Shown here in pieces: positions 49,052 through 53,817 of a stretch of DNA of 64,000 nucleotides. The position numbers were made by a program, and so were the translations under genes. The stretch's first letter is position 1; the number at the start of each line of letters is the position of its first letter. The DNA lies in the NCBI RefSeq assembly GCF_900188125.1, contig NZ_FZOW01000003.1:310001-374000 (forward strand). The letters are read 5' to 3'. The stretch is from Rhodococcoides kyotonense (GTDB taxonomy: Bacteria > Actinomycetota > Actinomycetes > Mycobacteriales > Mycobacteriaceae). The notes under the pieces are model-generated. The model was not told where the DNA came from, searched no databases, and was given only the letters and a program-made list of their open reading frames with translations.

Positions 49052-49215
49052 TGTGCGACCACCGCGAGATCGCAGACGGGCACGCTGGTTTCAGCGCCGG
49101 TCCCGGTGTGGCGGACGGTGGCGTACAGGTCGTCGCGTTTGATCGGCTCGGCGAGCTGCAGTGGCACGCACATCCACGGATGCCACGCGTCTACGTACAA
49201 GATCGTGTCGTTCAT
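49048..49215 (-). CDS. Hypothetical small phage protein
   Basis: 55 residues: MNDTILYVDAWHPWMCVPL, then LAEPIKRDDLYATVRHTGTG. It overlaps its neighbours at both ends (ATGA and GTGA). No family recognised; the beta-rich sequence suggests a small folded domain. Confidence 0.6.
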   Translation of the reverse strand: MNDTILYVDAWHPWMCVPLQLAEPIKRDDLYATVRHTGTGAETSVPVCDLAVVAQ

Positions 49216-50000
49216 GCGAACCTCCGGTTCAGTTCCTGTGCAGCCCAGTCGGTCCAGGTGATGTTCTGTCCGGGCATGCGTTCCATCGCGTAGCCGGTGT
49301 GGGGTGTGCGGCCTGGGTTGCCGTACGGGACGAGGTAGGCGGTGAGGCCGGCGCCCGCTGCGAGGTACGACGATTCACGTAGCCACGACAGCCAGTCCGT
49401 CGACTTCACCGCATCGAGACTGCGGAACGGGTCGGTCTCGTTGAGCTGCAACGCCGCGAACGGCGACAAGCCGCGAGAGATATTCCGTAGTGGTGAGAAG
49501 CGTGGTGTCGCACCGATGATGTCGCGGGCATCGCACAGCTCCAGGTTCACCGTGTTCCGCGGGAACGGGCCATGCGACGAATGGATCCCGGACCCCTGCA
49601 CCGGAACCACATGATCCCCCGCATTCCTCGCAGGGTTCGCGATCCCCAGATGGAACGCCACCTCCAACGGCGAACCGTTCGGATTCGTCCACCGCCGCAA
49701 CGCGACACCCTCCAGGAACCGGGATGCCACGATGCCGCCGAGACTGTACGAGATCAGCCCCACCGGGTTCGGAGAGTCACGCACCTGGCGGGCCAGATCG
49801 GCGACACCGAGTTCGACGGACACGTCGAGCGGGTGAGCGCCGATCCCGTTGCCCGCTCCGACGTTCCCGATCGTCGCCGGAAAATTGCATTCGAAGATCC
49901 GGAAGCTGGCGCGGTTCAGCTGCTTCGCGACGACACCGGTCATCCCGTTGAACACACCCCGCGGATTACCGGTGCCTCGGATGGTGATTACGTCGATCAC
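49212..50000 (-). CDS. Alpha/beta hydrolase, lysin-B-like or PE-PPE-like
   Basis: 262 residues from a GTG with GAGGGGG 5 nt upstream. IDVITIRGTGNPRGVFNGMTG starts the fold; the nucleophile elbow is GLISYSLGGIVASRF, with S86 and a Ser in place of the first Gly of GxSxG. A C-terminal His lies in PHTGYAMERMPG. The shape fits mycolylarabinogalactan esterases (lysin B) or PE-PPE-domain hydrolases of actinophages. It is odd that it lies among early genes and far from the endolysin, joined to them by 4-nt overlaps. Its substrate is unproven. Confidence 0.7.
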   Translation of the reverse strand: MIDVITIRGTGNPRGVFNGMTGVVAKQLNRASFRIFECNFPATIGNVGAGNGIGAHPLDVSVELGVADLARQVRDSPNPVGLISYSLGGIVASRFLEGVALRRWTNPNGSPLEVAFHLGIANPARNAGDHVVPVQGSGIHSSHGPFPRNTVNLELCDARDIIGATPRFSPLRNISRGLSPFAALQLNETDPFRSLDAVKSTDWLSWLRESSYLAAGAGLTAYLVPYGNPGRTPHTGYAMERMPGQNITWTDWAAQELNRRFA

Positions 50001-50122
50001 AACAGCCCCCTCGCTGCTCGCTCGAATTGGTTTCCCGCCCATGTGAATGCGATGACGCCGATGTTGCAGACACCGGCCGCCGCGAACGCGGCGACCAGTG
50101 CTAGATCCTTGGCGTGCGTCAC
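49997..50122 (-). CDS. Tiny membrane protein
   Basis: 41 residues with one hydrophobic segment (DLALVAAFAAAGVCNIGVIAFTWAG). GTG start overlaps the RecT stop, and its stop overlaps the next GTG. Function unknown; it could be a phage small membrane factor. Confidence 0.55.
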   Translation of the reverse strand: MTHAKDLALVAAFAAAGVCNIGVIAFTWAGNQFERAARGLL

Positions 50123-51078
50123 TGCCCGGTGGCCTTGGCTGCCGATACGGACTTGCGTGCGTCGAGGATCCACTTCCGCAGCGGGGTGCCCTCGTACTCG
50201 TAGCCGAGCCACTCCCCCTCGGATTCCCGGCCGAGCTTCCATAGGCGTTGGAGCTCGTCGTCGCGGTGGAGGTCGCGGGCGAGGACGACCTGGTCGATGA
50301 ACTCTTCGAGGGTCTCGGGGTTCGGGAGTTGCTCGGGCTGCTCGGTTTCGGTCTCCGGCTCCCGCGTCTCGTCGGGTACGTCGGCGGCCGGGTCAGCTGC
50401 CTGAGGATCCGGGACGACGTCGACGTCGAGCGGTTCCTGCTTGTCGTCGGACTTGTCACCTTCGGCCGTCTGCTCGGTAGGTGCTGCTGCCGGGGCGTCG
50501 GGTTCTGGCTTGTCGCTGGGCTTCTCGATCCGCTCACTCGACGCCTGAGCTGCACGCTCGTCCTCCAACTCCTCGGCGGACTGACCGAACCCTGCCAGCA
50601 CGTCGGCGAAGTACAGTTTCGCGCCCTTCGTCGTCGCGCGGGCCACCATCATCGCGGCCGGGTTCTTGTCGTAGTTCCCACCCGGCTTGACCAGACCAGC
50701 AGTGCGAGCGTCCTCGATGCGGTAGTCGACGAACCTGGACGCGGACCATTCCTTCCGGCGGACCTTGATCTTCGCGTGAACGGCGTCGTCCTCGACGAGT
50801 TCGAAGTCGTGTCCGGCGCGGATGATCAACGCGCGCATCATGAACGCCGACAGGCCGGTCTTGCCGTTGATGTGGTTCAGCTCCTGGAACGCCACCCACA
50901 GCGGAATGTCGAGAGCATTGGATGCCATCTGTGCGGCGAGGATGTTGCCGGGCTTCCCGACGTACTGGGTCGGCAGCATGCCTGCCGTCGACAGCTGGGT
51001 CGCGAGTTCGCGGCGTTCAGCCCAGGAGTCGGGGATGTCGGAACGGCCGATCGTGGTGAGCGCGGTAGATGGAGCCAT
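50119..51078 (-). CDS. recT: RecT-family single-strand annealing recombinase
   Basis: 319 residues from the ATG at 51,078 (AAAGGA site). The RecT core is clear: LPTQYVGKPGNILAAQMASNALDIPLWVAFQELNHINGKTGLSAFMMRALIIRAGHDFELVEDDAVHAKIKVRRK, then MMVARATTKGAKLYFADVLAGF. Residues 170-260 are an acidic, Pro/Glu-rich disordered linker, and a short conserved tail follows. It anneals phage DNA and probably works with the Cas4-like nuclease. It is the first gene of the early operon. Confidence 0.88.
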   Translation of the reverse strand: MAPSTALTTIGRSDIPDSWAERRELATQLSTAGMLPTQYVGKPGNILAAQMASNALDIPLWVAFQELNHINGKTGLSAFMMRALIIRAGHDFELVEDDAVHAKIKVRRKEWSASRFVDYRIEDARTAGLVKPGGNYDKNPAAMMVARATTKGAKLYFADVLAGFGQSAEELEDERAAQASSERIEKPSDKPEPDAPAAAPTEQTAEGDKSDDKQEPLDVDVVPDPQAADPAADVPDETREPETETEQPEQLPNPETLEEFIDQVVLARDLHRDDELQRLWKLGRESEGEWLGYEYEGTPLRKWILDARKSVSAAKATGQ

Positions 51079-51117
51079 GTGTGTAAGTCCTTTCACGAGG
51101 GACACTGACGTAGGGAA

Positions 51118-51151
51118 CAGTAGCACTGTCACCCTGCACACATGAGTGTAG
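51118..51151 (-). promoter_or_regulatory. Early-operon promoter/operator region
   Basis: A leftward -10-like TACACT (plus 51,145-51,150) is followed by a dyad ACAGT-AGC-ACTGT (51,118-51,130) and the motif AGGGTGACAGT. The same GTGACAG core recurs at 46,530-46,540 and twice at 44,029-44,051. A rightward-reading TACACT lies at 51,192-51,197. This looks like a repressor-controlled promoter for RecT and the genes behind it. Confidence 0.45.
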
Positions 51152-51222
51152 CCGCCGAACCCGACACAAACTCGTGACACAGGAACAGACGGCTACACTG
51201 GGTATTGCCTTTCACGAGGCCC

Positions 51223-51268: not shown

Positions 51269-51649
51269 TCAGGCCTCGAACGAATCCGGCCCCGTCTGCA
51301 CAGCCTCCAGAGCAGGCGTGTTGGAGCCAGCAACAGCAGTACCCAACAGTGCGGCGACGACAGCGATCACGCCGGCCAACTGCACATCCGACGCGATACC
51401 GTACGCACCGAGCAGACCCGACGCCGCCACGACGACGGTGTAAAACGCCTGCCGCAACGTCGTCGACGCATACAGCAAAGCGAACAGCAGGGTGATCACA
51501 TTGACCGCCAACGCAGTCCACAACGCCGCCGTCGCACCATCGACAGCACCCCACAACACCAACGCACCCACCACCGCAGTGGACACGTCATAGAACCGCT
51601 GACGAGCAGACGCAGGAATAGAAGAACGAACCGGATCGAGAACAGACAT
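51269..51649 (-). CDS. Holin-like membrane protein
   Basis: 126 residues with four hydrophobic segments: VSTAVVGALVLWGAV, ATAALWTALAVNVITLLFALLYAS, AFYTVVVAASGLLGAYGIA and LAGVIAVVAALLGTAVAG. Position after the endolysin block and before a terminator fits an actinophage holin. AAAGG precedes the ATG by 7 nt. It would make lesions in the inner membrane at lysis. Confidence 0.75.
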   Translation of the reverse strand: MSVLDPVRSSIPASARQRFYDVSTAVVGALVLWGAVDGATAALWTALAVNVITLLFALLYASTTLRQAFYTVVVAASGLLGAYGIASDVQLAGVIAVVAALLGTAVAGSNTPALEAVQTGPDSFEA

Positions 51650-51687: not shown

Positions 51688-52350
51688 CTACGCGCCGACA
51701 CCGACAGGGACGGTCACGTCTCCCTCGCGAGCGAGGAGAGTCTTGAAGTCATCGAACGAGATCCGGGCACGGCCACCGCTCCCCCAGTCCGCCGACCACG
51801 AATTAAGGATCGTCACGTACTGCGCCGTCAGATTCGCACCCAACGCCAGATACTCGTGACCGCCGACCAACCCACCCGACGGCCGGATGAAGAACTTGTC
51901 GTCCGGTGACTCCATGCCGGTGAACCAATCCGTCCCGACCAACACCGGTCCGGACTGCATGGCGTGGAGGAACTGGTCGAACCCGAACGCATGCCGGTAC
52001 GACGACAGATAGCCCTGTGCGACACCGGCCTTGCACACCGCCAGCCCACTCGAGCCTGTGTCGTGCGGTGGATAGAACCCGGGGATCTCGTCGAGCTGCG
52101 TCGCCATCTCGTACAAGGTGAGCGCATTATCCGACGTCAGATACGCTCCACCACCGCCGCGTGACTTCGCGCCGATCTCGCAGTTCAGCCACTGCGCCAA
52201 CGCATGACCCGTGCACGACCCGATCTCACCCTGGTCCAACACGGGGGCGTTGTGCCGCCACAGGACAGTCCGCAACGCGAACGCAGGCCGCACCGCGAAC
52301 CGACGAGAACGCTCATCATGCTCAACGACCCGGCCGTAAGCTCGTGTCAC
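51688..52350 (-). CDS. Papain-like (C1-type) cysteine protease, lysis region
   Basis: 220 residues from a GTG overlapping the upstream stop. The catalytic set is Q40 and C46 in LDQGEIGSCTGHALA, H165 in VGGHEYLALG and N183 in ILNSWSADWGSGG, exactly the papain order. In actinophages such domains are found in or next to endolysins and may cut peptidoglycan cross-links. It lies between the endolysin genes and the holin-like gene. No signal peptide is seen. Peptidoglycan as substrate is inference. Confidence 0.8.
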   Translation of the reverse strand: MTRAYGRVVEHDERSRRFAVRPAFALRTVLWRHNAPVLDQGEIGSCTGHALAQWLNCEIGAKSRGGGGAYLTSDNALTLYEMATQLDEIPGFYPPHDTGSSGLAVCKAGVAQGYLSSYRHAFGFDQFLHAMQSGPVLVGTDWFTGMESPDDKFFIRPSGGLVGGHEYLALGANLTAQYVTILNSWSADWGSGGRARISFDDFKTLLAREGDVTVPVGVGA

Positions 52351-52826
52351 TTCGTGGCGTCCTTCAGCAACTCAGCGATCTCCTGCGCTGCACGCCGAGC
52401 GAGCGTCGCCTCCCGATACGTGCCCAGCACGTACGAGATCAACGACCCACGGCGAGCAAGGTTCTCGACCGGGGTATTCGCCGGAGCATTGTCCGGATCG
52501 ATCTTCCCGTCATGCAGATCGACCGGGTTGACGTAGCCGTCCCACACCACTTCGTTCCACACGTCGGCGAGACCGGCGCGAGTCCACATCTCGCCCTCTT
52601 TGACGTTGTAGTGAATCCTCTGAAACACCTTGCGCACCTTGTGCGGAACGCCGACCTGATTCCAGACGGCGGACAGTGCATTGTTCTGGTCGTCGTTCAT
52701 GTCGGCGCCTCCATAGACCCGGTCGATGATTGCCTGTACGTCGATACGGAACTGGTTCATGTCGATCCCGGCAGGATCGATCTTCCCTTCGGAGCTGTAT
52801 TCCTTGTGCCCCACAACGTCGCCCAT
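52347..52826 (-). CDS. C-terminal half of split endolysin: amidase zinc-ligand segment plus helical domain
   Basis: 159 residues. It begins MGDVVGHKEYSSEGKIDPAG, which is the C-terminal block of Amidase_2 domains that carries the second and third zinc ligands (His of GHKE, Asp of KIDP). The preceding gene ends just where this block should begin. A perfect AAGGAGG lies 8 nt upstream of the ATG inside the upstream gene, and stop and start overlap as TGATG. The rest (VYGGADMNDDQNNALSAVWNQVG...) is helical and may bind the cell wall. It probably pairs with the upstream product to form the amidase. Confidence 0.75.
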   Translation of the reverse strand: MGDVVGHKEYSSEGKIDPAGIDMNQFRIDVQAIIDRVYGGADMNDDQNNALSAVWNQVGVPHKVRKVFQRIHYNVKEGEMWTRAGLADVWNEVVWDGYVNPVDLHDGKIDPDNAPANTPVENLARRGSLISYVLGTYREATLARRAAQEIAELLKDATK

Positions 52827-53782
52827 CAGGCGGCCCTCCTTCCGAGCGCGTTCATGATTGCGGCACAGAGGATCTTGTAGTTCCGGAGCTGCACGTCGGT
52901 CCAGTCCCACGGCGCCGTCCCACGCGACACGGCTTCGACGCCGATGGTCTGGAAGTTCGCGTTGTTCGTCTCCCAGCCGGGCCACTTCCCCCGCCCGGCA
53001 TGCCAGCACACGCCGACCGCGATCAGACGGACCGTGCCGTCCTTCTCCAGAACGAGCTGCGCGAGCGGACCGGGCAGATCAGGGCGGCCGTCCTGCACGA
53101 TGCGCCAGTCGTTCTTGCCGCCGCCCGCAGTGTGATGACACAGCACACCGAGGACTTCCCGGAAGTCACCGTGCCCGCGATTCCGCCAACCCTCGTGCTC
53201 GATCAACGGCAGCCCGGCCGCGCGGATCACCTCCGCCAGCCACGTCGGATCACCGCGCCAGCCCTTGTATTTCCCGAACGGAATCCCCAACGAGTTCACA
53301 GGCGTCTCCTGCACAGGCGGCACGGTGGCCGGTGCGTCACCCGGGTAGGCGGCACCGGCCAGCAGTGGAAGTGGATCGAGAACGTCGCGTTCGTTACGAC
53401 GATCGACGTACGCGTAGCGGTGCCATTCGAAATGCAGATGCGGGGACACGTTCCCGTTGCCGGGGCCCTTCGTCGGATTGATCCGCGCGATGCGTTGTCC
53501 GGCCTCGACGCGCTCCCCGACTTTCACTTCGGGGATGACGTGGCCGTACACGGTGGCGCCTGAACCGTCACCTGTCGGGTGGTCGACGACGACCCACGAG
53601 CCGAAGCCTGAAGCCGCGCCCGAATACTGCACGGTGCCGCCCTGCGACGCGAACACAGGCAGGCCACCCGACCCGCCGTCCTTACCGAAGTCGACACCCC
53701 AGTGGACGGCCTGACGCCAGTCCTGCCAACCGAACATGTCGGTGACCTTGTGGCCGCGCGCAAGCGGCCAGAAACGAGTCAT
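52826..53782 (-). CDS. Endolysin N-terminal part: M23 peptidase and incomplete Amidase_2
   Basis: 318 residues from the ATG at 53,782 with GAGGTGA eight bases upstream. The M23 (LytM-type) domain has H27 and D31 in VHWGVDFGKD, H81 in YGHV and H115-x-H117 in SPHLHFEW: a complete Zn-endopeptidase set. The Amidase_2 domain starts near 200 with H216/H217 in LCHHTAGG, H261 in CWHAGRG and E283 in IGVEA, but stops at NALGRRAA before the GHKE...DP block. That block begins the next gene. The gene is preceded by an intergenic repeat seen also before the tape measure. Confidence 0.85.
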   Translation of the reverse strand: MTRFWPLARGHKVTDMFGWQDWRQAVHWGVDFGKDGGSGGLPVFASQGGTVQYSGAASGFGSWVVVDHPTGDGSGATVYGHVIPEVKVGERVEAGQRIARINPTKGPGNGNVSPHLHFEWHRYAYVDRRNERDVLDPLPLLAGAAYPGDAPATVPPVQETPVNSLGIPFGKYKGWRGDPTWLAEVIRAAGLPLIEHEGWRNRGHGDFREVLGVLCHHTAGGGKNDWRIVQDGRPDLPGPLAQLVLEKDGTVRLIAVGVCWHAGRGKWPGWETNNANFQTIGVEAVSRGTAPWDWTDVQLRNYKILCAAIMNALGRRAA

Positions 53783-53817
53783 GGACCGGGTCACCTCGAG
53801 GACATGTCAGCAGAGGC

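Follow-up and report, generated by a model that had tools for sequence, protein, structure and literature searches.

A divided amidase fold in a Rhodococcoides kyotonense prophage suggests a two-chain endolysin made by coupled translation

The nearest known mechanisms to the arrangement described here are, in the available text of the papers cited below, the genes-in-pieces enzymes of T4-like phages and the endolysins that are made as two polypeptides by means of internal starts. The first group, as far as the available text of PMC2988022 goes, comprises nrdA of phage Aeh1, the T4 topoisomerase and gene 43A/43B of Aeromonas phage 25, and for nrdA and 43A/43B the activity of the reassembled polypeptides was demonstrated. 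The second comprises Lys170, LysIME-EF1 and LysP7951 (PMC9430671, PMC7098653, both from partial text). In actinophages, lysA is divided between domains in PokyPuppy (gp33/gp34; PMC9671378) and in Arthrobacter phage Maggie (genes 16/17; PMC5513430), while the gene pair of Gordonia phage EpicDab is described in PMC9671378 as two LysA enzymes. The splits at domain boundaries reported in the available portions of these last two papers leave the folds intact, which agrees with the view, put forward in a preliminary description of the present locus, that a split inside the amidase fold would be unusual.

The locus lies in a prophage within a window of 64,000 nucleotides (64 kb, the whole stretch of DNA that was analyzed), part of the 6.3 Mb draft genome of Rhodococcoides kyotonense. 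The prophage is also found as IMG/VR contig L005; the window, L005 and L009 represent one prophage. The lysis region is read from the minus strand in the order LysA-N, LysA-C, peptidase, holin, RecT-like gene and LysB-like gene (Table 1). The start of the peptidase gene overlaps the last codon of LysA-C as GTGA, and a further hydrolase may therefore belong to the same coupled run. The alpha/beta-hydrolase-like gene is probably LysB. The RecT-like annealing protein gene (PHROG 561) is oddly placed, with the holin gene on one side and the LysB-like gene on the other.

Table 1. Features of the lysis region in the window, and homologous C halves in public records
Feature	Position	Strand	Remarks
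LysA-N	52826..53794	minus	322 aa; M23 peptidase and N-terminal part of the Amidase_2 domain
LysA-N start	GTG at 53794 or in-frame ATG at 53782	minus	ATG chosen in the preliminary description
Peptidase_M23 domain	53417..53707	minus	LysA-N residues 30-126; Pfam 60.8 bits, cut-off 28.7; coordinates derived from residue numbers
Amidase_2, first part	52844..53161	minus	LysA-N residues 212-317; Pfam 49.3 bits, cut-off 26
HHTAGGG in LysA-N	53117..53137	minus	mapped; presumed first zinc His
IGVEAVS in LysA-N	52925..52945	minus	aligned to IGIE of AmpD; presumed catalytic Glu
AAGGAGG ribosome site	52835..52841	minus	within the last LysA-N codons; 8 nt before the LysA-C ATG
TGATG stop/start overlap (bases 52828-52824) and next two bases	52822..52828	minus	
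LysA-C	52347..52826	minus	159 aa; ATG at 52826, stop ending at 52347; amidase last strand and helix, then a C-terminal domain
GHKEYSSEGKIDP in LysA-C	52773..52811	minus	aligned to AmpD; presumed second zinc His, catalytic Lys and zinc Asp
Peptidase gene	51688..52350	minus	PHROG 16701; weak papain-type match below the Pfam cut-off
Holin (Phage_holin_9)	51269..51649	minus	
RecT-like annealing protein gene	50119-51180	minus	
Alpha/beta-hydrolase-like lysis gene	49212..50039	minus	PHROG 102 (endolysin); start picked inside the ORF by the analyst
Homologous C half, L001	3711-4238		
Homologous C half, L002	3753-4289		
Homologous C half, L003	4890-5420		

The open reading frames and the Pfam matches bear out what the preliminary description had reported of the two genes. 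In LysA-N an M23 peptidase is followed by an Amidase_2 domain, which breaks off before the GHKE...DP block: the chain ends with NALGRRAA, followed by the TGA stop, and its Amidase_2 match spans only positions 3-108 of the 131 of the Pfam profile. LysA-C, whose N-terminus reads MGDVVGHKEYSSEGKIDPAG, opens with the missing GHKEYSSEGKIDP block. The PHROG 880 profile is covered from 3 to 300 by LysA-N and from 305 to 337 by LysA-C residues 4-36, so that the Amidase_2 (PF01510) profile is matched by LysA-N and its remainder is recovered in LysA-C through PHROG 880. A Pfam scan of LysA-C returned no family, the C-terminal domain included, and the same was true of the C halves of L001 and L003.

Motif and alignment to AmpD place HHTAG and IGVE in LysA-N and GHKE...KIDP in LysA-C, and with them one of the three zinc ligands in the first chain and two in the second. 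Across both chains the His, His and Asp ligands and the catalytic Glu and Lys are all present, in roles that we take over from AmpD. The first zinc His is assigned by its motif to HHTAGGG and the catalytic Glu presumably lies in IGVEAVS, while in GHKEYSSEGKIDP, aligned to AmpD, the roles of the other two zinc ligands (His and Asp) and of the catalytic Lys are those that we assume from AmpD biochemistry. In a model of the one-chain LysA of Rhodococcus phage MacGully, which has the AmpD fold, the cut maps to a loop between helix 131-148 and strand 156-158, consistent with a zinc amidase of the AmpD type. A C half modelled alone had disordered first residues, a result that proves little because the model is weak (pTM 0.38).

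We consider it likely that the prophage LysA is a two-chain zinc amidase, produced by coupled translation, whose chains assemble one zinc site. Two polypeptides sharing a zinc site had been suggested in the preliminary description; this is the best-supported reading, and the assembly itself we infer. Ribosomes would terminate LysA-N at the TGA and then initiate LysA-C at the overlapping ATG, guided by the AGGAGG in the last LysA-N codons, and such a coupled stop and start should fix the ratio of LysA-N to LysA-C fairly well. Most of the AmpD-like fold would come from LysA-N, together with the catalytic Glu and one of the two zinc His residues. LysA-C would complete the fold with its final strand and helix and bring in the other zinc His, the zinc Asp and the catalytic Lys, as well as the C-terminal domain. 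On docking of the two chains one zinc site would form. Neither half alone should then be an active amidase, and the M23 domain of LysA-N may function independently. What the sequences show is the cut, its conservation, the signs of selection on the second start, the constraint on the motif and the occurrence of one-chain forms among the split ones.

The same split, whose TGATG form the preliminary description proposed to look for in related phages, was found at the DNA level in 10 distinct loci, including three named Gordonia phages (EpicDab, record name EricDab; SallySpecial; Emperor), each with a homologous pair. A motif scan of 66 sources gave 53 with the motif and 13 without a match; with near-copies kept, the positive rows divide into 13 split, corresponding to the 10 loci, and 40 one-chain. 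A LysA-C-type C domain is present in only two of the 40 one-chain rows (L004 and L014), the rest ending in other domains. One split row, L015, is a bacterial genome (G363) with a LysA pair identical in protein sequence to that of Emperor, and is for that reason read as an integrated or contaminating DM phage. In another, L046 (4001-4476), the prophage C half loses its frame about halfway and appears disrupted.

The position of the cut is nearly fixed from both sides. Stand-alone, full-length C halves form 42 protein clusters, the window's own protein included (41 from the protein database, with a 92-residue fragment excluded, and P0161 from a separate search), with source names that include Nocardia, Rhodococcus, Rhodococcoides and Gordonia phages. 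In 40 of the 42 clusters the GH motif is preceded by exactly five residues, in one by four and in one by six, and H7, G14, K15, I16, D17 and P18 are invariant in all 41 aligned C halves. Twelve stand-alone N halves, the analyst's pick among 120 listed matches (P0171, with a diverged end, excluded), stop shortly past the LGR that closes the last helix, with two residues following it in 2 of them and three in 10. The C-half family is rare, a point against the two-chain reading: it occurs in 7 of 50,697 phage records, namely two records for each of the three DM phages and one for MacGully, and full-length matches occur in 4 of 401 host-family genomes, three split and one in one chain. A scan of genome contigs gave one distant locus. 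In two genera, 2 of 150 and 1 of 28 genomes had a strong match, and the single new one among them was L067, a Nocardia locus that duplicates L043. Approximately residues 39-150 of LysA-C, which form its C-terminal domain, also occur at 41-44% identity, and without the amidase motif, in three viral contigs and one Rhodococcoides fascians genome (L006, L007, L008 and L041), and the domain therefore seems to be a movable module.

An improbable alternative, though the strongest of those considered, is that the halves act apart, LysA-N through its M23 domain (or as a dead amidase) and LysA-C as a wall-binding protein that retains an old motif. The complete M23 domain in LysA-N, the presence of the C-terminal domain behind other proteins and the treatment of the EpicDab pair as two enzymes in the available text of PMC9671378 all speak for it. 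However, the zinc motif is the most constrained section of LysA-C: among 36 pairs from nine split loci, with pS close to saturation, pN/pS was 0.14 in the zinc motif (13 residues) and 0.30 over the opening 30 residues of the C half, the value also obtained for the N half, and it reached 0.47 in the remainder of the C half. In addition, M23 is missing from the chain in the three DM phages and in the 12 stand-alone N halves, so that their N half would be left without a function if the halves acted apart. A third argument against this alternative is that phages swap to one-chain forms.

Single-chain relatives with the same C domain are MacGully and P0057-P0061, of which P0058, the protein of Nocardia locus L014, unites all three parts (M23, amidase and C domain) in a single polypeptide. 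As with genes in pieces, a one-chain homologue thus exists and the cut lies inside a single fold. The preliminary description held that relatives with one uninterrupted gene would count against the split; such relatives do exist, in MacGully, the Nocardia locus and P0057-P0061, but the split is conserved in many others, and because both are kept they appear as two interchangeable forms, not as an error. In a C-half tree of 47 rows (without P0030, which the motif filter removed), the six one-chain rows require five changes, at least three of them forced by well-supported branches, and 118 of 500 shuffles require equally few changes, so that the one-chain label is not clustered. An N-half tree of 46 rows, in which 20 one-chain rows with other C domains remain ungrouped and long branches meet, forces at least two changes and has its split rows clustered. 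The window and the Rhodococcoides-type rows group in both trees, as do the DM-type rows, with uneven support; the deeper forks are poorly supported and the branch to MacGully is long. As judged from these trees, one-chain and two-chain forms have replaced each other more than once, whether by fission, by fusion or by recombination, and this is in keeping with their being halves of a single enzyme.

The junction itself carries signs of selection on the second start. The stop of LysA-N and the start of LysA-C share one base, TGA and ATG having their A in common, and the TGATG overlap and the AAGGAGG placed 8 nt ahead of that ATG, both given in the preliminary description, were found in the sequence; AAGGAGG occurs twice in total in the 64 kb window, both strands counted. 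TGATG is the junction in 7 of the 10 split loci, while EpicDab and SallySpecial have TGA-N-ATG, with one base between, and Emperor has TGA-NNN-ATG, with three bases between and the frame retained. A Shine-Dalgarno-like stretch precedes all ten second starts, at -8.5 to -15.8 kcal/mol, as computed with an assumed 16S tail; a search of the draft genome with two patterns did not find the tail. Ribosome-site strength was matched by 0.2 to 6.0% of 500 random 25-mers per locus, the weakest sites, which count against the two-chain reading, being those of EpicDab and Emperor (-8.5 kcal/mol, equalled by 6.0 and 3.4%). The last Arg codon is AGG in all seven TGATG loci, where it forms the GGAGG of the ribosome site. 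Elsewhere in the amidase part and the C half, AGG accounts for 1 of the 204 Arg codons counted (nine loci, without L046, whose C half is disrupted, and without the last six codons of the amidase part), and for this reason the second start looks to be under selection. Nothing is inserted at the cut, the two genes either overlapping or being separated by 1 to 3 bases, and an intron, intein or homing gene at this position was rejected on that ground.

A strong Shine-Dalgarno site close to a stop can stimulate -1 shifts, and the AGGAGG might on this basis stimulate a slip or hop at the junction that yields a full amidase chain, with the short chain as a by-product. The window's second frame is indeed -1 and is open far upstream. 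We judge such recoding very unlikely, since among the 10 same-cut loci the second gene lies in frame -1 in seven, +1 in two and 0 in one, a -1 slippery heptamer (X XXY YYZ) was found in just one of nine N-half genes scanned for -1 heptamers, 241 nt before the stop, and every C half opens with a start-codon Met at a fixed position. The set thus displays neither a direction kept among relatives nor a common slippery heptamer, the marks of a programmed frameshift. As a shared mechanism frame shifting was rejected, because a different event would be needed in each junction group, and the earlier suggestion that the strong site serves to shift frame is not supported for the family.

A sequencing error or a decayed prophage gene has a negligible chance of being the explanation: the locus belongs to a draft-genome prophage and one relative, L046, has a disrupted C half, but the same cut recurs, with differing junctions, in several further genomes and in three named phages that form plaques, and recurrence across such loci led us to reject sequencing error for the family.

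Should the halves assemble as proposed for the two-chain amidase, they would define a family of endolysins in which two proteins each hold part of one catalytic fold and one metal site with no inserted element, a natural and easily assayed split enzyme for which the one-chain relatives serve as controls. It could then be tested whether splitting an enzyme through coupled termination and initiation has a neutral effect or aids the timing of lysis. Gene-by-gene annotation of such phages captures just half of the active site, and the public names of the C halves (protease, glycosyl hydrolase, muramidase) would be corrected. More speculatively, and we rather doubt that all of it holds, Gordonia, Rhodococcus and Nocardia phages may keep a long-lived, selected, obligate two-chain zinc amidase whose metal site exists only when the chains meet, whose activity follows the product of two concentrations and so guards against early lysis, and whose forms switched more than once.

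The known systems differ from this arrangement in separate respects. Genes-in-pieces enzymes resemble it in making a single enzyme as two polypeptides, whose reassembly is known there and proposed here; in the available text of PMC2988022 their split is tied to homing endonuclease genes or intercistronic sequence, whereas LysA-N and LysA-C overlap with no insertion. Internal-start endolysins likewise draw two endolysin chains from one message (PMC9430671, partial text), but these are a full-length chain and its C-terminal part, while here there is no full chain and the catalytic fold is divided; a stop lies between the halves in all 10 split loci and the frame differs in nine. PokyPuppy and Maggie share with it two adjacent lysis genes, but there the cut falls between domains, and the available accounts describe for each gene an activity of its own. 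The open-licence literature, in the portions available, nowhere described an amidase fold with a cut that separates zinc ligands, which is weak evidence of absence. The LysA proteins of MacGully and of Nocardia (P0058) have the same amidase and C-terminal domain, with M23 also in P0058, but in a single uninterrupted gene. Closest of all are the Gordonia cluster DM pairs (EpicDab gp5/gp6, SallySpecial gp5/gp6 and Emperor gp7/gp8), homologous genes with the same cut, treated as two separate LysA enzymes in GenBank and in the available text of PMC9671378. GenBank names their C halves lysin A protease domain (EpicDab), glycosyl hydrolase domain (SallySpecial) and N-acetyl-B-D-muramidase domain (Emperor). 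M23 is absent from the DM phages, whose junctions are TGA-N-ATG or TGA-NNN-ATG, whereas the window has M23 and TGATG; on sequence grounds its pair is a new member of the DM-type two-gene set.
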